This document shows, piece by piece, positions 7,995-29,100 of a stretch of 64,000 bases of DNA. Source of the stretch: Sipunculus nudus (taxonomy: Eukaryota > Annelida > Sipuncula > Golfingiida > Sipunculidae); the NCBI GenBank assembly GCA_026874595.1, contig CM049318.1, positions 38,959,956 through 39,023,955 of the forward strand, given 5' to 3'. Numbering within the stretch: position 1 is the stretch's first letter; each line of letters begins with the position of its first letter. The notes under the pieces were generated by a model. It saw only the letters and a list, made by a program, of their open reading frames with translations. It searched no databases and was not told the DNA's origin. Position numbers and translations under genes: made by a program.

Positions 7995-8048
<54 letters not shown>
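7983..8048. repeat. (TA)n microsatellite
   Basis: Alternating TA tract of about 65 bases with one interruption. Confidence 0.95.
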
Positions 8049-8051
<3 letters not shown>

Positions 8052-8054
8052 TTA

Positions 8055-8160
8055 CACGGGAACCTCTCCTATAGTGTTTAACTCCATAAAGTGGGCATCT
8101 CTTTAAAGTAGGCAATTTGACCAGTCCCAAGGCTGCCCACATTATACAAGATTCACTGTA
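8055..8160. mobile_element. Fragment of a short mariner-style element
   Basis: The segment AGTCCCAAGGCTGCCCA followed by TTCACTGTATAT recurs, diverged, at 21775-21825. The end sequence resembles the ACAGTGGAAC end at 11484. I take both as decayed miniature elements; the assignment to mariner rests only on the end motif. Confidence 0.4.
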
Positions 8161-9913
8161 TATTCTTATCTACATTCCATTCATGACAGACAAGCTGTCA
8201 CCGTGGTGGTTTTTTTTTCTTCTTTGTTTTTGCAAAATTCTTGCTCTGTTCTTGTCCTCGGTCCTCACCGTCATAAAGACGTGTCCATCGACACCACTTG
8301 TGTCCTCTCTGTGATGAAAATGGGGACTCTGGACACCGGAGAGAAAATGGTATGAAGACTGCATATTTTACGTATGGATGAGATGCATATCAAGTCAACA
8401 TTTTGTAAACAGGTTAAGAAGTCACACAGCGACGACTTAATTATAGTAAAAATAACAGAGAGAAAATTCTGCAGTATGAACACAGAGGTCACTGTGTGAA
8501 TTCGTGTGCATGGTCATTCAGGACACAGGGGAAATGAAACACTTTCTATACCAATCAACGGCTTAATGGGAACTAAGCTTCCAGCGCATTCTCCTAGTTC
8601 CGGATTCTAGCCGTTGTTATTTGTGGTAGGATCGGTTGTAAAATCGTGTTCGATAAATGAAAATTAAAGAACGACATATGATTGAATATTAATTGATTAT
8701 TTATGTACCGTCAAAATAATCGCGAACATGTTGTAGAGAATTTTAACCTACATATTGACGGAGTAAACTGAGTCAAACCTCTACATCACGCTGAAAGGTC
8801 AAAGAATTGCCGAGTTGTTAAAACGTTCGTTGCACAAGGTTAAGTTTTAATGTTGTTTTGTGCCCCGTCTTTCTCATATCTGTGACATAAAAATATATTT
8901 TATCGGGATAATATGACTTCTTATATGTGCATACTTAATCGTTTATAATCGATTATGCAAAAAGCTTCCAACTGAATTAATTGAGTTTGAAATCGACGAA
9001 TCATCAATATATTAGTACGTGTAATCGATTTATGGCCACGTACCCGACCAGTGGCTACACATTTGGCAGCCACATGCTACCGAATGCAACGACCATAACA
9101 TATGCAAATCTCCTGGATGTAGCATTTGAGAATAATGTACATTGTACAGTGAAAAAATGTACTTATCGCCTACGTTATTTATCCGCAATTAGCAATTAGA
9201 ATCTGTGTAAAGGTGTTCAAAATTCCGCCTGCTCTAAGCGGTCGTGGACATTGAACCAACAAGCGCAGCACCCGCACGACAATCAAGTTAACTGCTAATG
9301 CGCCGTGATTGACCTAATTAAGATTATCAATAATCACATATAGTCATGGTATGGGAGATAACGGGACCTGTGATATATTGTCGTATCAAAGTGTTGCTCT
9401 TCGTTTGCCTTATCAGTCACCTAACCCTCGTGTATTTCACATTGCGTCTTCACCTGATCGAGCCCATTCAGCGCTTGGATGGTAACGGGTACAACAAAGC
9501 ATTCGATACGGTCGAGTGAAATTTAATGAAGTAACAATAAGACAAATTTTGAATAAGGTTTACATTTAGAAGTGCACACAGGTGAGTGAGTTTATTTTAT
9601 ACACACACATATATACTATGTCCATTTATACGTGATGTTTATGTCTACATATATATGTTTTTATGAAAGCACAAGAGAATAGGTAGTGGAAATCTGTGCC
9701 ACCATAGACATTCATGATATGGATTTTAAATTCTATACTGACCTATATTCGATAGACACAAGGATAAAATACTCGATACGATGTCAGTGCATAAGTGCAT
9801 AACTATTGCAAAATCTTTTTCTGAAGCTTGCTTGTTTACTTGTAATCTGCAACATAACTTAACCTTTCACGATGCAAGTAATCTTCGTTTCAGACTTGAC
9901 AAAAAAAGTCGTC
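8161..9913. other. Intergenic, upstream of the dipeptidase gene
   Basis: AT-rich and unique; no exon or repeat recognised. It should hold the dipeptidase promoter, but no TATA box or initiator could be called with confidence. Confidence 0.35.
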
Positions 9914-9937
9914 ATGAGTGACTATGCAAAATATGAG
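9914..9937 (+). CDS. DPEP1: Proposed initiator exon of the dipeptidase (8 codons)
   Basis: ATG AGT GAC TAT GCA AAA TAT GAG is followed directly by a GTGAGA donor in phase 0. It joins the exon at 11130, which opens with GAG CAA ACC after a run of about 16 T and an AG, to read [16 protein letters not shown] at position -3 relative to the ATG is favourable for initiation. I chose this start because it is the only ATG-donor pair I found upstream in the right phase and it completes a plausible short cytosolic tail. A possible acceptor (TTCGTTTCAG) lies about 25 bases upstream, so the 5' UTR may itself be split. Confidence 0.6.
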
Positions 9938-12900
9938 GTGAGATTTGCATAAACATCCAATATTTACTAAGCCCATTCAACTTGCCAAGTTGTTATAAAC
10001 TATTATATGTGGATTAAGGGAGACCTATTAAAAGTTGGACTATGCATACCTTTAATATTGACAAGGGAATCTACGTTCGGTTTAAGTAGACCAAACGAAC
10101 ATATATTGAGGGAATATGGCCTCATCTTAATTATTTTGGCCGATTTCCACCGTTTACACTATTTTGGAAATACTCCAACCACTGGCTTGTATTCTTGTGT
10201 AGGCTTTTGCCTTGTTATTATTATTCCCCTCTATCGGCAACACAGTGTTCCAACAACACCGGTTTTTTACCCCCCCCCCTCCCCAAACCTTATATTGACT
10301 GTCCGTGTGTTATGATATTTATTTACTTAATCAGTTACCCCAGTCTGTTGACTCTAGATCTGTGTTACGAAAAGGGTTAGATTGACGCAGCTAGGTTACA
10401 TAATACACGGAGGTTTGCACTTTTGATTGTATTTTCACAAACTATGTCTTAGCAGACTACTCAACATGATTTTAGTTATTCACAAAGTGCTGTATGATCT
10501 CATCTGTTACAACATACATACCTGTTCACACGGCCTATATATACACCCGGCTCATATCATAAGATCTCCTGTACTCCTGTAAAATAAAATCACCATCAAT
10601 ACGGGTCAGTCAGCATTCTGTAACAGGTCTGCAAATATTGGTAACATTCAGTAAATTCCAGCTGTAAACTCATGCAACATGTGTCCTTGTACATTAACAG
10701 AATATTTTCAATTTAAATTGAGCACATTGACGTTATCTTCCTTTTTCAATTAAAAATGTACAACAATCTTGCCTGGTTCATCGACCAGAAGTAAAGAATC
10801 TTACACACTCTCAATTCATATCCTCTTATTCAACTAATTATTGAGTAATATATAAAATAGTGTTTATTTGTAATATATTTCCCGTCATATTGCAAAAATA
10901 TACTGCTGCAAAATAAGTAAATCTACTTTTTCACAGATATATATTAGGATTTACATGCCTATTGGGTTTCACTCCACACCATTTTGTAAGATGAAAATTC
11001 GTTATTTTTATATAAATTATTTAAAATTTAACAAGATTAAAGTACTCATATAGTGCTGGACTTAGCAGCCCCTTCAATGCAAGAAATAACAAATATATTA
11101 CTGGTGTCATTTTTTTTTTTTTTTTTGAGGAGCAAACCCCATTAATTCAGCGTTTCCCAAACAAAATACAGGTGAAAGACGGCAGCCTTGTTGGCGACAC
11201 CCCGCGGACGATCATAACCCGGCCGTGGTTTGTTGTTCTCATCATCTTTCTAGCAGGTACGCATGCGCCTTTGTAAATGACTTTCTATGTCTTAACGCAT
11301 CTCTATCGATCTGTGTCTCTGTTTCTGTCTGTATATTTTCAGTCTACCTTTCTATATCTGGTTGTTACTGCCTTCTCCTTATTCTCCCCTCTTTCCAAAT
11401 ATTCCACCTGTCTGTTTCTGTCTATATGTAAATAGGCTTATACGCAAATATATACTGTACATAAATATAAATAATTGTTTATGACAGTGGAACCTGTCTG
11501 AATGGTCATCAATCCAATGAGAGCACCAGCATTTGAAGACCGCCTTTGAGTAAACCATAAGCAATCACGTTGGTTATAACTTAATTACCTGTCTGATAAG
11601 TGTATCTGTAAATTAAGACCACTTTGGTCATTACATGGGGCGGTCTCATTATCCAAGTTCCGCTGTAGTACAGTCTATATATTGATCGTGTTTATTATTA
11701 AATATATCTCCAAATCACTGTATCCCTGTTTAGTGTATTTCTTGGCTGATGGTTTAATCTTTCACAAAGTCTCTAGTACGTACGTCTTTTCTATGAATCT
11801 CAGCAAAACCGAGGCTCTTTATATTCTGTATAACCTCCGCTGTGTATTTTTAAAGGGGCCCATTCGCCTACCTTTTGAAAAATAATTTATGTGATTTCTG
11901 GCTTCCTCTGTATATATATTAATGATCTAAGGGTAATTTTGCTTGTGAAAAGTTCTTAAAACGCCTTTGTGAAGGAAGTATGGACTTGTTTATCAACAGT
12001 ATGTTTGTAAACACAGCAATGTTGATAAACGGGAATAACATGTAACCTAAGGTGGTAGGTTGCATATATAAGGAGGTAAAGAGGTCACTTGTAGCAAAAC
12101 GCAATTCGCAAAGCTATGGCTCATCTTAATTGCTGCCAGATGCCCTTGTTGAATTTGTTTTGATTTTTTCGAGGGTCCCCTAATATTATAACCACGCTGA
12201 TATTAACAAAACAAGAAGCCTGTGTGCGGTGATATTAATGTTTTCTGGCATGTTTTTATAAAAAAAAAGCTCCAAGGGATTACCTTTAGTTTATAAAAGT
12301 CAGATAGGTGATTGCGCCCCTTTAAGTCGTATCATCCGCATGCTGTATTAATTACCAAATATTACCATGTAATATACATTAATTATCGCTGGGTTCTTTA
12401 CATCATCAATTTGCATAACACAATCTACGTGTCTAACAATTGAATAAATTAATATCCCTTTGTACAACATTCCACTGTGTGGTTGGACTGTATACATATA
12501 CACCCTTCACGTTACATATAATTACAAAATTTAAGGAGCACAATGTCTAGAACGTTGTTACGTCTTGTATATCTCTACACTGTGCTAATCGGAATCTCAC
12601 ATGTAAAAGGAAAGTTAATGTAGATAAAACAGAAGACATTACAGACTTTTGTGAATTATGAATCTACACCATTTCAGAAACATCATTTGGTAGAAAAGGA
12701 CATAAAAAAAACATTTTTATTAATAAGCTCATATAATGTTAACATCAACTGCAACCATAATGATTTAAGTATTCTGTGAATAAACACGTTAATGTTTACC
12801 TACAAAGCATAATGATATTAGTATTCTGTGAATAAACACGTTTATGTTTACCTACAAAGCATAATGATATTAGTATTCTGTGAATAAACACGTTTATGTT

Positions 12901-13349
12901 TACCTACAAAGCATAATGATATTAGTATTCTGTGAATAAACACGTTTATGTTTACCTACAAAGCATAATGATATTAGTATTCTGTGAATAAACACGTTTA
13001 TGTTGACACTTTTTTCCTTGCACCGTTGCTGCCTTGCATGTTCTGGTTTAGGGACCAATTGTTTCATTATAAGCAGGTCGTTTGACGAAGGTTGAAACCA
13101 TGGATTCTGACGCAGTGAGAGCCATCGAGGCCTGGTGATGTTTCTATATTTATTTTTTTCTGGCAAATTTAGTCACGAGGGGTCGGGCTAGTCTGGTTTT
13201 CGTTTGTATATATATATAACCTTTCCGATATAGTGTGTGTCAGCGTGGCAGTTGCTGTGCCGCTGACCTTGGCCAGAACTCGAGATGACAACATGAACCG
13301 CGCACTACGTATACTGAATGAGGTACCGCTTATAGATGGGTAAGTCTTG

Positions 13350-13412
<63 letters not shown>

Positions 13413-14211
13413 TTATTTATACAGTTAAACTATTATATATATATATATATATAAATATATATATATATACAGTAAACCTGGCCTAACGACCGCCTCGGTT
13501 CAGCGACCACCACAAAATAACGATCACTTTTACATGGTTCCAATTCAAACTTGCTCTATATATCAGAGCTCGCGTAGACGACCACCTCGAAAAATGTGAC
13601 CACTTTATCGAAGTTCATCATACACGCCTATATTCCTTAACTATAACTGATTGATTCGGGGAAAAATTGGTAAATTGTTGAGTTAAAACACAGGGGACTT
13701 TCACCATATATTGAAATACAATCAAAAGGTATAAAAATTCGGCCATTATCCGAGAACAAAGTTTCAGACATGTTGATATTACCTGCAGTGTTCTATAAAA
13801 AGTCAAAGCATTTGTCTAAAACCTAAAATTGATCTGAGTAATAAAGGGTTAAACTCTGGATAAGCGATGGACATGAGAATGGGAGCGGTTTCCTCCACCT
13901 TAAACAATCATTGATACCAAACAATATTCTGATGTCAAATTCTATATTCACGAATTATCTAACAAGACAATAACCAATAAGTTCGACTGATTTTTTTATA
14001 TAATGATTACAATACAATATGCATCATTATTCACTGATCTTCACTAATTGGCAGCCACAATGACCTACCATATAACCTACAATTGAACTCGGGCGGTGAG
14101 CTGAGTCTGATCGACCTCAACAGAGACACCTGTGGTCAGTTCTGGAGGGGTCCTTGTCAAACAGATATACCGCGCATGCTCAGTGGAAAGGTGGGAGGTC
14201 AGGTGGGTCAA

Positions 14212-14278
<67 letters not shown>

Positions 14279-17200
14279 GTGTGTGTGATTAATATGAAAT
14301 ACTACCTATACAACAACAACAACAACAACTACTACTACAACTACTGCTACTGCCACTATTAATTCTACTATACTATAATAAATATAGTAATTGTAAAAAT
14401 AATAAAAAATATTATAATAAATATTCATCCTCAAACACAGGAAGATAACAAACATGTAAGATTTTGTCACCTTGGTCGTCTTTTGTTGGTGAAAAGATTG
14501 TAAACTCTGTGTATCATTTTAGTTCTGGTCTGTATTCACAAGATGTAACACCCAGTACAAAGATGGCGTCCAGAAAGCGATGGAACTGGCTGATATCATC
14601 CACCGGATCTCCACGGAGTATCCGGTTTTCACCATGGCCTATACTGCCGACGGTAGATAAACACAAACAGATAGACAAACTAACAAACAAACAACTGTCA
14701 AGGTCTGTTAACTCATTATTTAAAAAAAATGTTTTTTACCCTGACCTTGCTGGGCGTACTTTCATTAAATCATTCATGTCACTGACATCACAGGCACTTG
14801 AATTGCTATTAGTGTAGATTTCGTTTAAGTTTGATGCTTTTCTATGTCATTTCCGTATAGGTATTACTTATCTGACATATTCGTAGCGTTTTTCACACCA
14901 TATGATCTATCTCTGTATTATTTACTTACTATTTGAGATAAGCAGACAAGAAGCCTCCGTCGTTAGGTCTGGCAGTCATGGTATACCAACCGAGGACGCG
15001 CTTTCTGATTGGTTGGCACGTTTACTTCTCGAGTCTTCAAATGGTGACACCGCTGACGTAACAACGGTTCACCCAATCACGCATGTACTTCAAACGATCG
15101 GCTATGGCTGTTGGGCCTAACAACGGGGGCTTCTTGCCTGCCTATCTCAAATATCATCATATATCGCAGTGATGATGTTCTAACCCTAACCCTTGAAAAG
15201 AAACAATTCATCATAGTTTGTCACGCAAAAAAATTTAGTTGGCTTCCCCTGAAGAAGCTTAGAATACTGGTGGGACGTCAGGGTCACACAGATGTTCCAA
15301 AATTTTATCTCAAACGCTTTTTTTTAAACAAGGATTAAACTCTTTAAGGATGTTTTTAAATACAAATATGACAAAAAATAAAATCCGCATTACTTTTCTT
15401 GGTTCCAGATATCGTGCGGGCTAAACAGCAGAATAAAATCGCGTCTCTGATTGGCGTGGAAGGTGGACATATGATTGGAAACAGCATGGCTGCGCTGCGC
15501 ATGCTCTATCAGGTCGGCGTTCGGTATCTGACCTTGACCTGGAATTGCAACACCCCATGGTGAGTGAATGCCCCTAAATACTGGCTCACGAATCACCGAT
15601 GTCACTCCAACGTGTCCCTATATTACCCTGATATCAACCCAATGTGCCCCAAATGTCAACCAAAGTTAGGTCCAAAAACCTTTTCGATTACAATTTATTT
15701 TGTGTTTTCAGAAAAAAAGTAATCGATTACAACTGCACTTATTGTAACTGCACTCCATTTACATTATGATAGCAACAGCAACTAGGTCAGAATTCGGTTT
15801 GAACCCATAATTTTCACTTTCAACAATTTCTCGACAATATATAAATTGATACAGTTAAATAAACCTGATTCTAAATTTTGACCATGTAATGAATGTCCCG
15901 ATCTTCTCCGCTTCCCGATGTCATCACGATGTGTCCCGATATGTCCCCGATGTTTAACCGATGTTAACCCGTTATTAAACCGATGTTTACCCGATGTTAA
16001 CCCGATGTAAGTTCGGGACACTTTGGAGACGACAGTTCGAATGCCAGCCGAGGCGGTAAGATTTATCCCGATCGGTCTACACCCAACTAAAGAGAGCGCT
16101 CTGCAGGCTTAATTGATAGGCCGTGCCCAACGGCCGAGTTTCACTCATAGTCGAGTCCTGGGTGGTATGACCAAGCAATTGGGTCGATTACACACCATTG
16201 GCTCACAGGTGCAGTAGTCACCGGGCTTGGTTAACACCAGGATATAAAATCGGAGGTAGCGTGCAATTCTGCACTGTCAAGTTGTCCTAAACCGGAATCG
16301 AATTCCGCAGATGTACATATACTTTAAGCATAAAAATGGCGGTGGTTACCTCCAGAAAATTATTTTAAAAAGCTTTGTTACTAAATTATGTTAAAACATT
16401 TTCCCTGAATCTTTCTTACCTGGACAATATGACAATGGAAGGAAAACTACAGCTTGTGTATCTCTTTTCCATACAATATTGAACTGAATGCAGTAAAGCC
16501 AAAATGACTCATCCAAGCAAATCCATACAATCATTTTGATTGGACAGAGATTTAAAAAAAAATAATCGACCGACAGTATCAATTTTATAACAAGATCATG
16601 TTAAACATAAAAATGAAACATATTTTATTTTAATGTCATATTGGAAAACGACTTGAGTCAATCATAATTGTCCTATGACAAAAACTGAAACCAGAGGGCT
16701 TCTTGATAAAATTTCATATCCCATGGTTATGCTTGTTAATAACAGTGAAATATTACAAAGTGCCAACCGTGTTTTGACGCGATTGTCTCCGTGTCTGTCC
16801 TCTGTATAACTCTCTGCACCGAGTTTGCGAATATAGTTTGCTAGTATCATATAACATTACATAGTAATATCACTAACTATGTATTGTTTCTGCCGGCAAA
16901 GCCATGGTGCAAGTAGACAAAGATTGACAGTGTTATATTTATAAGCCTGTTATTCAATTTTTTTCAGTTTTGTTATATCAGCCCTCGATGCTAAACACCC
17001 TTTATAGATAACCACAGTACACATTCATAGATAACCTTTCTTTTCTGTTTTCGATTGTTAGTGTGACCCCTAACGTGATAAAAGAGTGTTCGTTTGACTC
17101 GGCGTGTCTGCGACGTAATGTACTCTGGGACAAGCGAGGCACAGCCGAGCGCGCATAAATCGTGACCCCCCCCCCCCCCCGCAAGGTTTTTTTTATTTTT

Positions 17201-20200
17201 ATTATCAACAAATATTTACAAATCTTTAGTTCCAGTCGCTCGGACATCTCTTCCAAGAAATGTAAAATAATACAATTTTGATAACATTTCCCTTTGTCAT
17301 GTTGTGTTTTTTTCGCAAATCATTTGTGTCATTATCATGTTTTCCTCTAAAATAATTCGACAAAATACAAAAAAAAAGTAAAAATAGTCATCCGCCCGCC
17401 GTGATTTGTGAAATTACGTGTCTTAGAAATATCACGTCGTTTTTTGCCTTAGGCATTACAGAACGTACATCAAAGGTTTCATCTTAAACTAAACCTGATT
17501 CTGTGAAAAAAATGGGCACATAAGTAAAGATTTCTGTTAAAAACTAAGAACGGAAAACGGATGATTAATTTACCCCTAAAATGGAATAAATGAGGCCCTT
17601 CACACAAGATATTCAGAATCTGTCTTGTGCCTTTTTCTACAAATCGCCCTTTCCATATTTAAACTAGAAATCTGCATTCTAAGGAATACAAGCCTCCATC
17701 ATTTAGGGACATCTTTTGTCGGATGCTCCCAAAACCGTATTTGCCTTTATTCCCAGTTTCAATCGTGCTTAAGTGACTCTATATACGCTCCAGAATCCCC
17801 ATCATGTTCTGGATCTACACACATATCTGATCGATTCCTAATTGGCCCATCCTCAAAATGTCCTGAGAATATCATGGGTTTCAGTGTCTTTTTGCATGAA
17901 TCATGTTGTGAACAAACACACACAAGCGCACACACGAACTGGGATGAACGCATACTCGCCTGTTGGAGGCAATCAGGCACTGTGTATATATAATTAAAAT
18001 GATATCATCGGTCTCAAAATGTGAATAATGACAGATTTGCAATTAACAGTGCGCCAAAGGTAACGAAGATAACAATGGATCATGCATAATCTGCTACTTT
18101 TTACCAGAGGCTGAAAAGAGTAATTATAAATCAAAAGGTTATATCTTTTTGTCAGTACTACGTCAGTTGAAGTATATAAGTTAAACCTTTCACGAGATAA
18201 CAATATAAAATAGGGCAGAGCATAACAGGTCACAAACACAGCTCAAGACTGACATATCACTCTCTTGATACCAGAGTTGCCTTCAAAGGAAACTGATAAT
18301 ATTGGTAATGAATCACGCGCATCTTTGCGGTCCCAGACAGCTTTACTTTTAAAACTAATTAGCTGAAGGGATATTTGTTAATTTTCATGTTGATTTAATT
18401 ATGTTATGTAATTTTCCCTGTAAAACCAATATAAAACATATAAAAAAAATAAATTTTCGAATGGACTAACGTTGCACCAAATCATATATATACATAAATA
18501 ATTAAGCAATAATAAATCGGTATGAATTTATTCATGACAAAAAGATCAGAATTCTCTTTTCATACTCATCGGATGTTCGATACTTTTGGATGTAACTGTA
18601 TCTAATAAACTCTCCTTTACGCCCGGGATACAGACCGTCGAAAGAGGTCGTATACTGGTAATTAGATGTGAAATCGCCACGGCTGAAAACCGCCGTAGTA
18701 GCTGCGTTCCTTGAATGCAAGTTATACGTATATCGGACCAATGCGTCATAACTGCTTTACTGAATCAGAAAATATAGTTTATAGTTAAGCTTGACTCACA
18801 ATCAATATGAACCATCCGTTATCAGTGCATGGCCAACATATGAAAGTTGATATATTTTTCGCATGAACATTTGGTTTTAAATTAATCCATATAGGCATTC
18901 TCAAGAAGTGGGTCAAGTGATCTAGCTCTTTGTGACCTAAATCAATAAAAGTTGGGAAGATATGAAAGATGAAATATATATATGTGAAACATGAAAGGTT
19001 TTGAATGAAAAATCATTGTCTTATAATGTGTCCATAAGCTTTTTCAAGATGTTGCCCTTTGACCCCATGACCTCAAAAATCAATAGGATTCTTTACATAT
19101 AGGTAGGAGAACCATGTTTTAAAGAAGAATAGGTGTTGGATGAAAACTTGGATTACATGACTTACATTGCATCTACAAGTCAATATAACGCACGGATGGC
19201 AGGACGGACGAACAGATAGGCTACGTTACTTAATCCCCTCGTTGAGAAGTTGAATAAAAGCTGAATTTGATATAAGAATAGATGAAAAAACAACTTTATA
19301 ACTTTATAAAATGCAATAGCTAGCTAATACTTTTTTTTCGAAGGGCTGACCAATCACGACCAGAGAGAGACAGTTGTACGTCATCTAATGGAGGCCTGAC
19401 GTCATGGGGCAGACAGGTCGTCAGGGAGATGAACCGACTGGGCATGCTCGTTGACCTTTCACACGTGTCCAACGACACCATGATGTCAGCCCTGAACGAG
19501 AGCCAAGCTCCAGTCATATTCAGCCACTCCTCCGCGTACGCTCTGTGCCCACACCCTCGAAATGTTCCGGATGAGGTTCTGCGGAAAGTAGTGAGTACAT
19601 TACTAACAGGGAAAAGGAGGGGCGTTTGGGAATGAAAACTATTAACTTGGACCTATTTTACAATCCTACCCCACTAAAGACGCCTGCCGGCGAAGACCGA
19701 CATTGCGGTCGGTCTTTTTACCGAGCGCTATCGAGCGTACCGAGCGCTACCCTGGATTCACTCAAGGCATTGCTCTGACCCGCGTGGGGCTACCGAGCGC
19801 TCGGACTTTTTACCGAGCGCTACCCTGTCCTAGCAACGGACAGTGTTCTTACATACTCGGGACTACCGAGCGCTAGGGACTTTTTACCGAGCGCTACCCT
19901 TGATTCACACCAGGCATTGCTCTGACCCGGCAGGGGCTACCGAGCGCTCGGACCTTTTTATCGACTCGGAGCGCTACCCTGCTCTAACAAAGGGCAGTGT
20001 TCTTACATACTTGGGACTACCGAGCGTTAGGGACTTTTAACCGAGCGCTACCATCGCGCACATGACAGCTATTTTTTTTACCGCATTCAGCACAAACCAC
20101 CATTTTTAGTATAAAGCATGTTTTTTAGTTAATCCAGCATACAAAATAATTAACGATGTCTACACCCTGGATGAGATCGATGATTTCTTTATGATATATT

Positions 20201-20337
20201 TATATATATATATATATTACTATAAACATACATATAAATTCGATATATGTATGTGTAAACACATTTATTCATATATCAGTAGTCCTATATAAATATAATA
20301 TATAATTTAAAATTATGCTATATATTTACATATATCA

Positions 20338-20381
<44 letters not shown>

Positions 20382-20671
20382 GAGAGAGAGAGAGAGAGAG
20401 AGAGTAAAGAAATAAAGAAAGAGAGAGCGCTATACCATATATAATATTTATCCGATATAGGCTATAAAGGAGAGAGAGAAAGAATGAAAGAGAGAGAAAG
20501 AAAGAGAGACAGAGAGAGAGAGAGAAGAACCTGAATTAGAGGGAAAGGTAACAAAGACCTATACTATATATAATATTTATCCGATATATATAGGAGAGAA
20601 AAAGAAAGAAAGAAAGAGAAAAAGAGACAGATGAAAAAAGTAAGGGGGAGAGAAAGAAAGAGAGACAGTAG

Positions 20672-20728
<57 letters not shown>

Positions 20729-22208
20729 TGGGAAAGATAACATAAGCGGTGCTTATTCATGTTATATATAAAACAAATACAATGTAAATAATTGAATATG
20801 ATATTTTGTGTTGAATGCGGTTAAAACTACTTATTTGTCAGGTGCGCGATGGTAGCGCTCGGCAAAAAGTCCCTAGCGCTCGGTCGTCCCAAGATGTTTG
20901 AAGTATGTAAGAACACTTCCCGTTGTAAGAGCAGGAAAGCCCTCGGTAACTAGTCCCCAGCACTCGGGAAATGACTGGTGTGACCCTAGGGTAGCTCTCG
21001 GTAAATGACTGGTGTGACCCGAGGGGTAGCGCTCGGTAAAAAGTCCGAGCGCTCGGTAGCCCCACGCTGGTCAAAGCGATGCCTGGTGTGAATCAAGGGT
21101 AGCGCTCGGTAAAAAGTCCGAGCGCTCGGTAGCCCCACGCTGGTCAAAGCGATGCCTGGTGTGAATCCAGGGTAGCGCTCGGGAAAAAGACCGACTCCCG
21201 ACATTGCATCATGGAGTTTGTCTTGTGGACAAGAAATGCGATCTCTTGTTAAATATACATGTATTTCAAATGATAAATTTGGAATTTATTAGCCTACCTT
21301 ATTTATACTTAATGGTGAGGTTGCAGTCGGAACCAATGTTTTCTATTTATTTTCAACTGACAAAAGCCAAAATACTTTTACATTGGAGCTGAAGACGCCG
21401 AAAGTTCAATACATCTGACCTCCCGGTGACCTTCCACTCACAGTTAGTGTAGCGAATAGTTAAGCATAGCGTAACCGCTGCTTATGGAGCGTATATCAGA
21501 CGCGGACTTTTCTTCATTTTGGTGCGCAAGCGCAGAACAGGCTAGACCATGCACTCGCGCTTGGAACAGCAATGCCTAAGATGAGGTTCGCTTGTCGATT
21601 GAATAAGTCAGATAAATGTTGTATCGATACAGACCGTTTTATAGGTGATGTTTCAGTAAATCATATTTTTCTTTCAAGACATAAAAATTAACTATATGTC
21701 AATGTCCTTCTGAGTCTTATTATTTACGTTGCGGTCATGACCTCCATATAGTGGATACCTCTATAAATAGACAGTTCGGCCGAGTCCCAAGGGTGCCCAT
21801 AGTACAGAGGTTTCACTGTATATAAAATCTTACCGCTTGAGGCAAATAGAAAATCTGTAAAACTTAATTTGTAAGACCTTGCGGTCGTGTTGCATGTATA
21901 AGACCCTGACACAGCAAGCATTTTGTTATCCTTTGAAGAAAACCAACGGAGGTATCGTCATGATCAACTTTTACAACAAATTCATCAACTGTACGGCCGA
22001 GAATCGCTTTATTTCTGGACAAAGGTCTGCCAGCATTGACCAGATAATCGGTGAGGAACCAATCACGTCATCATATATATGTCTGAATATGCATTAGATT
22101 ATCGATCACGTCAAATTTACCGCGTGAATATATTATAACGTAAATAAATGTTCCATTTATGTTCAGTCTCTCGCTTTGGTATTGCTTTCGATAGACCTAA
22201 TCATGTCC

Positions 22209-22259
<51 letters not shown>

Positions 22260-23849
22260 AATTAATGATGTCCTTAATTTGTTCAAGATCACATGGACCA
22301 CATCAAAAGAGTTGCTGGAGTGGACCATATTGGGATCGGGAGCGATTTTGATGGCATTTCTTAGTGAGTATATACCTGCAAACGAACATAATTACCTAAA
22401 TCCCGCGTACATAGGCTGAATCAATGTGTATGAGATCATTTTGAAAGACCGGCCAAAAATGAAGAAAAATCACACTGAAAATATAAACTGCTCTGCTGCA
22501 TGTAAACAGCCATGCAAAACTTTAGACAATTTCGGCCAAAGTTATGGATATTATACACACTTTTACCATCCAGTAACCATGTCTAACGATATTCATGTTT
22601 TCAAAATACAATGTACAATTATTCCCATTATAATTTTGATTAAAAAAATTTGAAGGCAGGGGAAAAAGAATATATTCTAATTTATTTTCCATTTTAATTA
22701 GTATGAAGAATATTTTAATTCAATATTTCGAATTTAACACAAACGCATACATAATAACCAAGAAATAAGCTGAAACACCTTCCCTGTTTAAGTGTTCCGA
22801 CCGATTTAGAAGACACGTCAAAGTTTCCTAACCTTGTGGCCGGTATGCTGCGTCGTGGGTGGCCTGAGGCGGACGTCAGAAAGGTTGTCGGGGAAAATAT
22901 GCTCAGAGTTATGAGGAGAGTGGAACAGGTAGGTGGAAGGGACGAAATGGAAGTATATCTAGGTACGAGGAAAAATGGAACAGCTAGATGGGATTTGATA
23001 GGCCAAATAATATAGATTAGGAGGAAAATTAATGGGTAGATGGTAGTGGTAGGAATTGGTTTTAATATCATAATCGATGATTGAAAGATTTAAATGACCG
23101 TTGATCGAATATTAAACGATTATTTTATGTACTTGGAATATTATCTAGAAATCTGCTGTACATAGTACCTATACTATTAACCCCGGTAAACAGATGTACA
23201 TCGGTAATCATAATGAACCATCAATCCACCTGCATCCAAGATCGACTTGCCGTCGGACGATTGTTTGCTGCACAAGGTTCCGTTTTGTTCTGATGCTGTT
23301 CGTTACTTTGTGTTCACACATCTGTGACAGGATTAGATTCATTGCATGTGCATACTACATAACCGTTTTAAATCGATTATGCAAAAATGCAACCGATTTA
23401 ATCCATTTTGAAAGAAAACGATCAATCATCGATTTAATCGATTATTCGGTACACCACTAATAGATGGAATGAACGAAAAGGGAACATGCCTCAGATTTTG
23501 AGGGTAAAGGAACAATTATGTAAAATTGACTGAGGGAAATATATTCCAATTAATGAGGGAAAAGGAAGATTGGTAAAATGGACAAAAGGGAAATGCAAAC
23601 ATCTTGTTATAATCCTTTATGCCTCTTCCAATGAAAACATATTTAATTAAACTTTATACACGTTTCTCCATTCTCCCTCAGGTTCGTGACGACATGCGTG
23701 ACGTCAGACCGTATGAGAAGCCCCTGAATTACTCCCTCATCCCTGACAGACGCTGTGTCGTTCAGCCATGGACTGCTCCAAGCACATGTACCCCGGGAGC
23801 ACAAACCGTGGACGCTGAACCAGACGCCATGCCGTGTGAAACACTCTGA
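9914..23849 (+). CDS. DPEP1: Membrane dipeptidase (renal dipeptidase / DPEP family), type II membrane-anchored, 11 exons, 474 aa
   Basis: Zinc dipeptidase of the M19 family, which cleaves dipeptides and, in vertebrates, leukotriene D4 and cystinyl-bis-glycine. Coding exons: 9914-9937, 11130-11256, 13234-13339, 14055-14202, 14523-14652, 15409-15559, 19344-19590, 21939-22050, 22288-22363, 22793-22928, 23682-23849 (stop). Every junction is GT-AG and all phases agree, giving 1425 nt. Residues 1-40 are hydrophilic and presumed cytosolic, with EQTPLI at 9-14. Residues about 41-64 ([10 protein letters not shown]... to ...VPLTLA) form one hydrophobic segment. The catalytic domain then shows HNDLP (H87, D89), GVEGGH (E196), DLSHVS (H269), FSHSSA (H290) and GSDFDG (D368, D370). 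These are the family's zinc and substrate ligands, and the 21-residue spacing of the two histidines matches mammalian DPEP1. Sequons are visible at NES (280), NCT (328) and NYS in the last exon. The protein ends in a hydrophilic tail without the hydrophobic GPI signal of mammalian DPEP. The family is certain; the closest paralogue (DPEP1, 2 or 3) is not. The first two exons are inferred from phase and topology. Confidence 0.9.
11484..11666. mobile_element. Miniature inverted-repeat element, about 183 bases
   Basis: Ends are ACAGTGGAACCTGTC on the left and, inverted, ACAGCGGAACTTGGA on the right, giving a 10-base terminal repeat with one mismatch. It lies in dipeptidase intron 2. Related fragments are at 8055 and 21730. 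Confidence 0.5.
11854..12321. mobile_element. TTAA-flanked miniature element, 468 bases, copy 1 (piggyBac-like)
   Basis: TTAA stands on each side (11850-11853, 12322-12325). The inverted ends are AGGGGCCCATTCGCCTA and, from the right, AGGGGCGCAATCACCTA. The interior aligns throughout with the copy at 53827-54294, which has the same length. A TTAA target duplication is the mark of piggyBac-type transposition. No transposase is encoded. It lies in dipeptidase intron 2. Confidence 0.8.
12751..13003. repeat. 52-base tandem repeat, about 4.5 copies
   Basis: The unit begins GTATTCTGTGAATAAACACG and starts at 12769, 12821, 12873, 12925 and 12977. Copies are almost identical, so the array expanded recently. 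It sits in dipeptidase intron 2, about 230 bases before the next exon. Confidence 0.95.
13354..13470. repeat. (TA)n microsatellites just after the exon 3 donor
   Basis: Two TA tracts (about 13354-13408 and 13433-13470) begin 14 bases after the GTAAGT donor at 13340. Confidence 0.95.
14216..14274. repeat. (TA)n microsatellite just after the exon 4 donor
   Basis: About 29 TA units begin 13 bases after the donor at 14203. It is followed by (TG)n and a CAACAACAACTACTACTAC triplet stretch. Confidence 0.95.
15895..16016. repeat. Degenerate minisatellite of GATGTTAACCC-like units
   Basis: Repeats of about 10-12 bases (CCGATGTTAACC, CCGATGTTTACC, CCGATATGTCC) in dipeptidase intron 6. A 79-codon minus-strand frame over it is repeat-derived. 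Confidence 0.7.
16030..16330 (+). repeat. tRNA-derived SINE, plus-strand copy
   Basis: Carries a B-box-like GTTCGAATGCC, then AGAGCGCTCTGCAGGC, GGTGCAGTAG and the end GCAGATGTACAT. All of these recur in order, inverted, at 42560-42895. It lies in dipeptidase intron 6. The A-box part is decayed. Confidence 0.6.
17690..17990 (-). repeat. Dispersed repeat family A, copy 2 (inverted)
   Basis: Read on the minus strand it starts TGCCTCCAACAGGCGAGTAT and contains TTTGTTCACAACATGAT and AATCGATCAGATATG, matching copies at 38160 and 56040. Copy in dipeptidase intron 6. Confidence 0.7.
18900..19225. repeat. Decayed dispersed repeat with CGGACGGACG-type tail
   Basis: Contains GACCCCATGACCTCAAAA and GGCAGGACGGACGAACAGATA, the pattern of low-copy molluscan repeats also seen at 31230-31310. 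It ends about 120 bases before dipeptidase exon 7. Confidence 0.45.
19700..21207. mobile_element. Foldback element with ~400-base inverted arms
   Basis: Left arm about 19700-20096, right arm about 20806-21207, inverted relative to each other. Both arms are built from alternating ~75-base subunits sharing ACCGAGCGCTAC. One subunit type carries TTCACACCAGGCAT and GTGGGGCTACCGAGCGCTCG, the other AGTGTTCTTACATAC. The outer ends are GTCGGTCTTTTTACCGAGC versus GTCGGTCTTTTTCCCGAGC, and the inner ends share ACCGCATTCA. The loop (20097-20805) is TA- and GA-rich with no coding capacity. Long inverted arms made of short direct repeats match foldback (FB/Galileo-like) elements. It lies in dipeptidase intron 7. 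Confidence 0.8.
20341..20724. repeat. (TA)n and (GA)n tracts in the foldback loop
   Basis: (TA)n at 20341-20378, (GA)n at 20382-20404 and 20676-20724, with impure GA/GAAA sequence between. A phrase ending ATATAATATTTATCCGATAT occurs twice (about 20438-20457 and 20567-20586), so the block has duplicated. The frame encoding serial Ser-Leu is meaningless. Confidence 0.9.
21730..21825. mobile_element. Fragment of a short mariner-style element
   Basis: GAGTCCCAAGGGTGCCCATA and TTTCACTGTATAT match 8128-8162. It lies in dipeptidase intron 7, about 110 bases before exon 8. Confidence 0.45.
22211..22255. repeat. (CT)n microsatellite before dipeptidase exon 9
   Basis: About 22 CT units end 32 bases before the exon at 22288. 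They may reinforce the acceptor's pyrimidine tract. Confidence 0.95.
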
Positions 23850-26111: not shown

Positions 26112-29100
26112 CTATTTTAACACCAGATCAGGATTCGTTTTTATGCCGTTCATATGATCAATTCGCTGTTGTATCCGGCTTCCAAGCTTGTTGTACTTTT
26201 TCTTCAAAAAGAAATCCAACTCTTGTTCACGAATTTCTCTGCAACAAAGTACCAGAAACATTTCAGGATGGATCAGATATTCAGCTGATGATTTATAACA
26301 TCCCACTTCAAAATAATGATTACGATTTTGCTATAATTTAAACTTAAATTATCAGCTCAAATTCTTTATTTTTTTTATTTTCATCCAGAATGACTACGAT
26401 GATGTATGACTCTTCACATTACAGCAATGTTCCTTCACAACTGAACTGAAGTTGGCCGTCTCAAGAACACCTGTCCTCAGGGGTAGCATGTCACTTTGTG
26501 GTTAAAGAACTTGAGTTTGTAGATGACAGTCTCTGTTTTGTCACCCGAGCCCAAATGAAACAATGACAAGAAGGTGACGCCATCAACAGATCCCTCATCA
26601 ATTTTATTTATAGGTTACAAGATTACTTCATTAATCCCCCTCTGTGCGTCAAAGATTCTGTATCCAGAGTTATCACAACAACATATAAACCTAATCAGAG
26701 GAGACCGTGACTCACCTCGGAACTGGACCATTACTGGACACAGGGATGTTGGTGGAGGGCATCTTATTTCCATGTGGGAACAAATCCCTGTTAAAGAAAT
26801 AGATCATATATATGATGTACTGCATACAAACAAGAGAATCATCCTATTTGATCATTTACTTTCCAAATTGCATTAAAGGTCTCCAAAATATGCCTTTCGG
26901 TACCGGTAGTTATAGTATGATAACCCACGAATAATTGATATTAGAAGTTGGATAATGAAATCTTGTGTGCACATTCTGCAGGATCGGAAACTTCATCTGA
27001 CCGCAGACAAAGATCTTGACAAAAAACACGGCAGCTTACTTTACGTATTTATATACTATTGTAGGGTGAAATTAATACAATAGTATGTAAGCATGATATG
27101 TCAAGGATGTAACTTTTAAGGATACAGATTTATTGAGTTAATATTAATTTCCTAAAATTAAAGAACAAAATTTAAAAAAAATAAACATTGTTTTTTTATT
27201 ATTGGACCTCAAACCAGCCTTTTTTCAATAGTTAAACTTGATCAATACTGATTATTCATGATATGTATTTTGAAACCATCATAAAATAGCATATATATTT
27301 TATACATAGCAAATATATTCTGTATCTTTCAGTGTATGCATACTGGATCACCAAGCCTTACCAAAGACCAAATGTTCTAAATAATAAGGCTAGATTATTT
27401 TGCAATCTCCTGGACTGACAACACAAGAAACCACAATATATATTAACCTAAACACTGCTTATGAAAACATATCCATAATGTTTAAAGTCCATAAAATTTT
27501 CTGTTTTACAGTATATAGAGTTATACATACTCTTTGTTGACTCTGTCATCCTGAATGCCTGTAGATCTGTCCACCTGGGCAAACTGAGCATTGACCATTT
27601 CTGGAGTCAGTTCCAAACCTGATGTCTCCTCACTGATACATGGAAATTAAATAACTAAAGGTGTTACTGTGAATCTGTTATATGAATAGTATAGTTTTGC
27701 CATTTTGTATTTTATCACAAGAATGAAAACTTCTTTCAGGTAATTTTGAAACTTTACAAAATTTTCACTGGTTAGTTCAAATTTATTCAAAAATATTCCA
27801 ATACTACATGACCTTTATTGTGGCACAATATGAAAATATTTAATGTTAACAATTTTTCATGGAATGTATTTCTTTTTATACAAAGTAATCATGAGTCTAT
27901 AGTCCGTTCCAGCACCCCTGTCCACCTGTTTTTTCTTGATTATTTTTTTTATAATAAAAGAAAGTCCAAACTTTTTAATCTTAGGGCAGAAAGAGGAAAA
28001 AGCGTAATTAACTTTTATGGAAATAATAGCGTACCTCGTGTCATTTTCCTGTAAACAATTTAAAACCATTTTATGAGTAACAAGTCTATTCTATAGCGAC
28101 ATCGTGCCACTAATCTGTGAAATGGGCATATCAGGGATTAGTGATGACGTCATAATAGACGTGACGTACTAAAGAGGCGCCCATATTCATGGGACCAATA
28201 ATCAAGAGCTGCTGACCCCTGTTTATAGCGAGACTTATATTCTCCACGTGCACGCGCTTCACTGTTACGTCACATTACTTTATACAAGGAGGATAAACAA
28301 TGGCCACTTATTAGGGACGCCATGAACCACGGATATATATGAGATATGTCAACCAGGCCGTAAAGTGAATAATATTTATATTTTGAGTAGGTAAGGTACC
28401 AAAAATTACGCTTTTGCCTTTTAATGCCATTGGTGCAAATTTTGATTTGCAAGTTTGTCTTATGTAGAGATAAACGCGAAAAAATAGGTGGACAGGGGTG
28501 CTGGAACGGACTATAGTAATTTTCAACAGTTTAGAATTCTGACTTGGATATATAATTATTGCAACATAACATAAAATAATCTTCAAATTATGTAATTTTT
28601 TAATATATTGCAACAGCAATTACTCAATATTCACACTTACAAAAGACCAAAGACCAAACAATTTAATGAAAATATAAACTCAAAATTTGAATAGAAAGTT
28701 ATTAATAGATGTAATGCACTTTAATAATTTTCTACATATAACTGCTTCTATCCCGTGTATTTAAAGAGTAAAATGGACCACAGAAATTCAGTCTTATGTA
28801 TAAAAATTAAAAATAAAATTAAAATAAAGGTTATTACTTCTAAATTTTTCCTTGCCAAGTGCATATAACCCTGAAATCCAGAAGACCTGGCAGTTACCTA
28901 TCCTTCTCATTGTAAGGTAATGCATGGCAATATATATTTAGTTAAAAGGCAGAACAGTATTTGCATTTTGTAATCTGAAAATGAAGCTCTGGTAGGATGT
29001 TAAATTTTGAAATATCAATGTAGAAAAAAATAATAAAATAAAACAAATGACTTCAAACAGACAGGAAGCAGGTATATTTTCTAGGTTGGCTATACTGCAA

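Follow-up and report, generated by a model that had tools for sequence, protein, structure and literature searches.

The window analysed here, a stretch of 64,000 nucleotides from Sipunculus nudus (C13:38959956-39023955), contains the gene of a membrane dipeptidase (DPEP) homologue of peptidase family M19. The best reading, to which we assign a probability of slightly less than one half (about 0.48), is that of an M19 protein in type II orientation, whose hydrolysis is impaired or altered and which may be sorted by means of its tail. An uncleaved N-terminal signal anchor, and no GPI anchor, would hold the protein in the membrane, with the tail in the cytosol and the M19 domain on the luminal or extracellular side. 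Owing to two extra exons the tail is longer than in the three known paralogs, and its one acidic dileucine match could bind AP-1, AP-2 or AP-3. A tryptophan takes the place of an active-site histidine that M19 relatives nearly always keep, and the protein would most likely bind metal with weak, altered or no dipeptidase activity, while being taken up from the surface or cycling through endosomes. The N-anchored layout as such looks ordinary for the DPEPs of this animal. Of these points, the reading frame with its consistent splice sites, the hydrophobic span, the motif match, the His-to-Trp change, the intact metal ligands and the contrast with the paralogs can be read directly from the sequence, and the orientation in the membrane, the lack of cleavage, the loss of activity, the binding of adaptors and the endosomal location are inferred.

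Gene structure and domain organization

The gene lies on the + strand (9914-23849) and, in the spliced model, consists of 11 coding exons encoding 474 amino acids, with all ten introns flanked by GT-AG. A Pfam profile search identifies the product as a member of peptidase family M19, the PF01244 domain spanning residues 78-415 (E=1.3e-119; 399.5 bits against a cut-off of 26), with profile positions 3-318 of 319 aligned. The best solved relatives are the DPEP1 chains 1itq (human) and 9h0b ('Dipeptidase 1', which we take to be the mouse protein), with identities of 49% and 48%, respectively. Coding exon 1 (9914..9937) encodes MSDYAKYE, exon 2 (11130..11256) the predicted cytosolic tail and the first half of the transmembrane segment (TM), and exon 3 (13234..13339) the remaining TM, the stalk and the start of the M19 domain. 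Active-site positions are found in exons 4 (14055..14202), 6 (15409..15559), 7 (19344..19590) and 9 (22288..22363). The model is completed by exons 5 (14523..14652), 8 (21939..22050), 10 (22793..22928) and 11 (23682..23849), the last of which encodes a hydrophilic C-terminus and the stop.

Upstream of exon 1 there may be a 5' UTR exon ending at 9581, where the candidate donor CAG-GTGAGT has the top score among the 120 GTs in 8001-9890 under a donor matrix; the next exon would start at 9894. If this splice is used, the frame is closed upstream by a stop and M1 becomes the first Met of the chain; without it, the tail would be extended to an in-frame ATG located 14 codons further upstream.

The acceptor of exon 2 consists of a T tract followed by GAG-GAG, and GAG acceptors are generally rare. 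Use of a second AG three bases downstream would result in one Glu fewer and would keep the dileucine motif; with either AG, a Glu stands four residues before the LI pair. The G+C content of the exon is 0.50, compared to 0.36 for the introns and 0.51 for the coding sequence, with 98 of 1239 intron windows being equally rich. In the exon's own frame no ATG is present as far back as a stop at 11022. Skipping of exon 2, a case raised in the original prediction, would join exon 1 to exon 3 and thereby disrupt the frame. An alternative first exon, encoding a signal peptide and directly adjoining exon 3, was rejected for the adjoining sequence, where the upstream frame is stopped at 13170 and lacks an ATG. 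When the window was searched for a second DPEP with tblastn (E up to 10), two matches came up apart from this gene, both at chance level (E 1.8 and 6.0).

N-terminal anchor and C-terminus

A single hydrophobic span precedes the catalytic domain, at residues 40-64 (11223..13274, interrupted by the intron 11257-13233), very close to residues 41-64 as originally predicted. The span is 25 residues long, free of charges and preceded by 39 residues, and its best 19-residue Kyte-Doolittle mean is 3.06. At the other end of the protein, the 11-exon model shows no GPI-type tail: the most hydrophobic 15-mer within the last 60 residues scores 0.18, and the chain ends in ...PDAMPCETL, in agreement with the hydrophilic C-terminus that had been described for it. 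The charges flanking the span do not by themselves favour a type II orientation, with a net charge of 0 in the 15 residues on its N-terminal side and of +2 on its C-terminal side; in the paralogs described below, the N side of the span is the more positive one. A type II orientation is nevertheless favoured by the homology to outward-facing enzymes and by the layout of the family.

Mammalian DPEPs have a cleaved signal peptide and a GPI anchor, and the window DPEP differs from DPEP1 in having a predicted N-terminal anchor instead. The predicted departure from the mammalian topology is borne out with respect to the single N-terminal hydrophobic span and the absence of a GPI-like end, but it is not peculiar to this gene, being found in three paralogs and in a clam; the topology claim is likely to be right, although in this genome it describes nothing out of the ordinary. 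The clam protein, Tegillarca granosa DPEP1, was cloned by RACE and comprises 452 amino acids with a predicted TM at 30-52 and an M19 domain at 68-421 (PMC6062768). Its abstract mentions a 22-residue signal peptide, whereas the results place the TM at 30-52. As far as the described layout, rather than the sequence, can be compared, it shows the same N-anchored organization as the window DPEP (PMC6062768). The recombinant clam protein lowered glutathione, with a maximum at pH 6, and staining was reported for the most part in epithelial cells along the periphery of the tissue, a tissue-level observation that says little about the compartment (PMC6062768). In a literature search conducted mostly at title level, no other paper on the topology of a mollusc DPEP was noticed. 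In fly CG6154 the first ligand is reported as H71, compared to H36 in human DPEP1 (PMC6372189), so that this protein also has a longer N-terminus. That the clam protein and each DPEP gene identified in this genome share the N-anchored layout suggests that animal DPEPs are not as a rule GPI-anchored.

Comparison with the tandem paralogs

A Pfam search of the genome of the animal itself (1.43 Gb in 153 contigs) gave at least 14 matches, of which 3 belong to the window DPEP and 11 lie on C11 between 1824358 and 1933465. Within 130 kb of this contig (C11:1815001-1945000), tblastn resolves three tandem DPEP genes, A, B and C; the resulting number of four DPEP genes is a lower bound, because 20 candidates were scored. 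A TGA interrupts the frame of paralog C at 1933436, within its last-but-one exon, which makes this gene a possible pseudogene. In paralog B, at approximately C11:1911590-1912090, the 3' end of the last-but-one exon is tandemly repeated several times, about every 116 bases, and paralog A contains one or more additional copies.

The first recognisable coding exons of A, B and C read MGRGTGKGNGLDWFVDRKR-TM, MGKAKGSGRYDMFGQRR-TM and MEKAKGSGQYDQKRR-TM, with tail, TM and stalk encoded in one exon. The tails, of 19, 17 and 15 residues, are basic and are followed by uncharged runs of 24, 25 and 22 residues. Their last exons end in NTSCRIVNW, NTSCRVPW and NTSCRVLHW, without a hydrophobic tail; exon 11 of the window DPEP is similar to them by eye (VRD...LIP...C...W) and continues beyond their stop. 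The four genes found in the genome thus have in common the N-terminal span, the absence of a hydrophobic C-terminal tail, an exon ending after ...P-L-(I/V)-D-G and a related last exon, so that the N-anchored, GPI-less layout is not special to the window DPEP. They differ in that the paralogs have short basic tails, a His at the position of DPEP1 His152 and a TM without an intron, whereas the window DPEP has a tail of 39 residues, a Trp and a split TM. The long tail is the window DPEP's own, given that the paralog tails are short, basic and devoid of an acidic dileucine clear of the membrane.

Additional exons of the paralogs were looked for at both ends. Comparison of the downstream DNA of A with that of B and C (about 15, 15 and 12 kb) returned the last two coding exons and repeats of one of them, and no GPI exon; between A and C one weak open reading frame match was obtained (E=0.009, position 14065). 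Since the stops of A and B overlap donor-like GT sites (by eye), a further 3' exon has a small probability in these two genes. Upstream, the sole block shared between A and C is an interspersed repeat, and a tblastn search with the tail of the window DPEP against the 130 kb cluster gave a best E of 0.63.

The acidic dileucine motif

The sequence EQTPLI (residues 9-14, 11130..11147) fits the pattern [DE]xxxL[LI], as originally noted, and is the sole match to [DE]xxxL[LIVM] in all 474 residues. It is located in the predicted cytosolic tail, with 25 residues separating LI from the span. Motifs of the type [D/E]XXXL[L/I] are described as being recognised by AP-1, AP-2 and AP-3 (PMC5297682). In pattern and in its predicted cytosolic position, the motif resembles those of LIMP2 (DERAPLI, in which a Pro likewise precedes LI) and mucolipin-1 (ETERLL), but the latter two are reported as working signals, whereas that of the window DPEP is a match at the level of sequence (PMC5297682). 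Matches to [DE]xxxL[LI] arise by chance in 3.1% of shuffled tails and in 6.0% of random 40-mers of average composition (200,000 each). With Pro before the pair the rate falls to 0.3%, a refinement that was picked after the motif had been seen. These statistics are suggestive and not more.

Sorting-like matches in DPEP tails are not confined to the window DPEP, as DRKRLL occurs at the membrane edge in paralog A and a tyrosine-type match, YDMF, in paralog B (C11 near 1897970). Of the proposed endosomal or lysosomal signal, the fit to the pattern therefore stands; as a signal it consists of one match, which has no counterpart clear of the membrane in paralogs A-C. Sorting of the window DPEP by its tail is possible. 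N-terminal anchoring is shared with the paralogs and has already been reported in the clam (PMC6062768); the sorting-like tail and the loss of the histidine are the window DPEP's own.

Active site

All metal ligands of DPEP1 are intact in the window DPEP: H20 and D22 correspond to H87 and D89 (exon 4), E125 to E196 (exon 6), and H198 and H219 to H269 and H290 (exon 7). Also kept are R230 and D288, as R301 (exon 7) and D368 (exon 9). His152, a residue to be expected in an active DPEP1-like enzyme, is replaced by Trp223, encoded by TGG (15540..15542, exon 6). Among the best 80 of at least 588 confirmed bacterial or archaeal stretches, the residues equivalent to H20, D22, E125, H198, H219, R230 and D288 are kept in 80/80, a count that for H20 and D22 is partly built in, because both lie in the pattern that seeded the scan. 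Position 152, which lies outside the patterns, is occupied by His in 79 of the same 80 and by Tyr in the remaining one. A scan of prokaryote genomes with a single sequence had yielded 12 pattern-matching stretches, none of them a relative. Of the solved M19 chains inspected, 9h0b, 1itq, 3id7 and 5lx0 (this last chain having a score similar to that of GliJ 5lwz) carry His at position 152, and the DPEP3 chain 6vgo carries Phe. A search of the literature, mostly at title level, brought to notice no M19 protein with Trp at this position. The paralog codons are CAT, CAC and CAT, all for His; TGG differs from each of them at all three bases, which makes a sequencing error hard to invoke.

By the title of a mutagenesis study (Keynan 1997), membrane dipeptidase is said to have three essential histidines. 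Of these, two are described as acting in catalysis, and a role in the binding of substrate or inhibitor is ascribed to the third (PMC7804941, reporting Keynan 1997). Judged by its spacing, the binding histidine would be His152.

The window DPEP shares the lack of His at position 152 with DPEP3, which is described as GPI-anchored, unlike the window DPEP, and which reportedly lacks dipeptidase activity, according to the title of a paper. DPEP3 also has Tyr for H198, Leu for R230 and Asn for D288, and in view of these three further changes the Phe at 152 may not by itself be the cause of the reported lack of activity. The window DPEP keeps all three residues, and its hydrolysis is therefore expected to be impaired or altered, and not with certainty absent. 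The label 'dipeptidase' used in the original prediction is made doubtful by Trp223 at a position where the paralogs keep His.

In a small tree the branch lengths are 0.46 for the window DPEP, 0.44 for human DPEP1 and 0.73 for DPEP3. The paralog sequences in this tree are incomplete (341, 348 and 255 aligned residues), and the branching that places the window DPEP with respect to A-C and to the genes of vertebrates has a support of 0.16. The gene is intact and not fast-evolving, which speaks against decay. If the Trp were conserved among orthologues, the lineage of this animal would add to DPEP3 another M19 copy in which the active-site His has been lost or changed, in this case with all metal ligands kept. 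The copy-specific tail would then point to trafficking or binding rather than to the breakdown of glutathione or leukotrienes.

Alternative interpretations

An unlikely, though quite credible, alternative is that the protein is a plain cell-surface type II M19 protein, with a dileucine match that arose by chance and a tail without a role in sorting. The chance rate of 3-6% fits this interpretation, as do the paralogs, which lack a match clear of the membrane while DRKRLL in A illustrates how easily the pattern arises, and the mainly peripheral epithelial staining of the clam protein at tissue level (PMC6062768). The Pro before LI, as in LIMP2 (PMC5297682), argues against it with the chance rate of 0.3%, subject to the post hoc nature of that refinement. 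Rather improbable is the active endolysosomal dipeptidase that was originally proposed. Such an enzyme would be consistent with the intact metal ligands and R230 and D288 positions, with the fit of the motif and with the activity of the clam relative on glutathione at an optimum of pH 6 (PMC6062768), but the Trp at the place of His152 argues against it, this being, to judge by the spacing, the histidine for which a role in substrate or inhibitor binding is reported (PMC7804941).

Two further alternatives concern the N-terminus. The span could be a signal peptide with a long leader, which is cleaved to give a secreted protein: the span ends in a Pro followed by LTLA and, after it, RT, which by eye might be taken for a cleavage site of signal peptidase, the net charge of the flanks does not favour a type II anchor, and the abstract on the clam protein speaks of a 22-residue signal peptide, although a TM at 30-52 is given in the results of that paper (PMC6062768). 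Set against the 39 residues that precede the span and the length of the uncharged run (25 residues, and 22-25 in the paralogs), cleavage appears distinctly improbable. That the N-terminal exons are mis-modelled, with another first exon or acceptor being used, is the least credible of these alternatives. It could account for the GAG acceptor, for an exon 1 of just 24 coding bases, for the paralogs' ATG, which lies in the same exon as their complete TM, and for the failure of the tail to find a better match than E=0.63 in the cluster. However, exon 2 keeps the frame, contributes the N-terminal half of the TM and resembles exons in its G+C content, and no in-frame ATG occurs between the stop at 13170 and exon 3.

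A more specific reading, which we regard as very doubtful, is that of a pseudo-dipeptidase acting as a sorting partner, which would retain the fold and the metal site, form disulfide dimers with the active N-anchored DPEPs and carry them through endosomes by means of its dileucine. C444 of the window DPEP aligns by eye with the Cys of the paralogs' NTSCR, and the window DPEP is the only one of the four known copies whose tail carries an acidic dileucine at a distance from the membrane. Porcine membrane dipeptidase is said, by the title of a paper, to dimerise through one such Cys.

Repetitive sequences in the window

The intron that splits the TM contains a 52-base tandem repeat at 12756-13004 (4.8 copies, 98% alike). 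Intron 7 contains, at 19738-21194, a large imperfect inverted repeat of 73-154-base tandem units (TACCGAGCGC...), with arms of at most 145 bases that are about 1.1 kb apart, which looks like a non-autonomous mobile element. Downstream of the gene, at 27897-28516, a MITE-like element is bounded by 47-base terminal inverted repeats that are 91% complementary and 526 bases apart.
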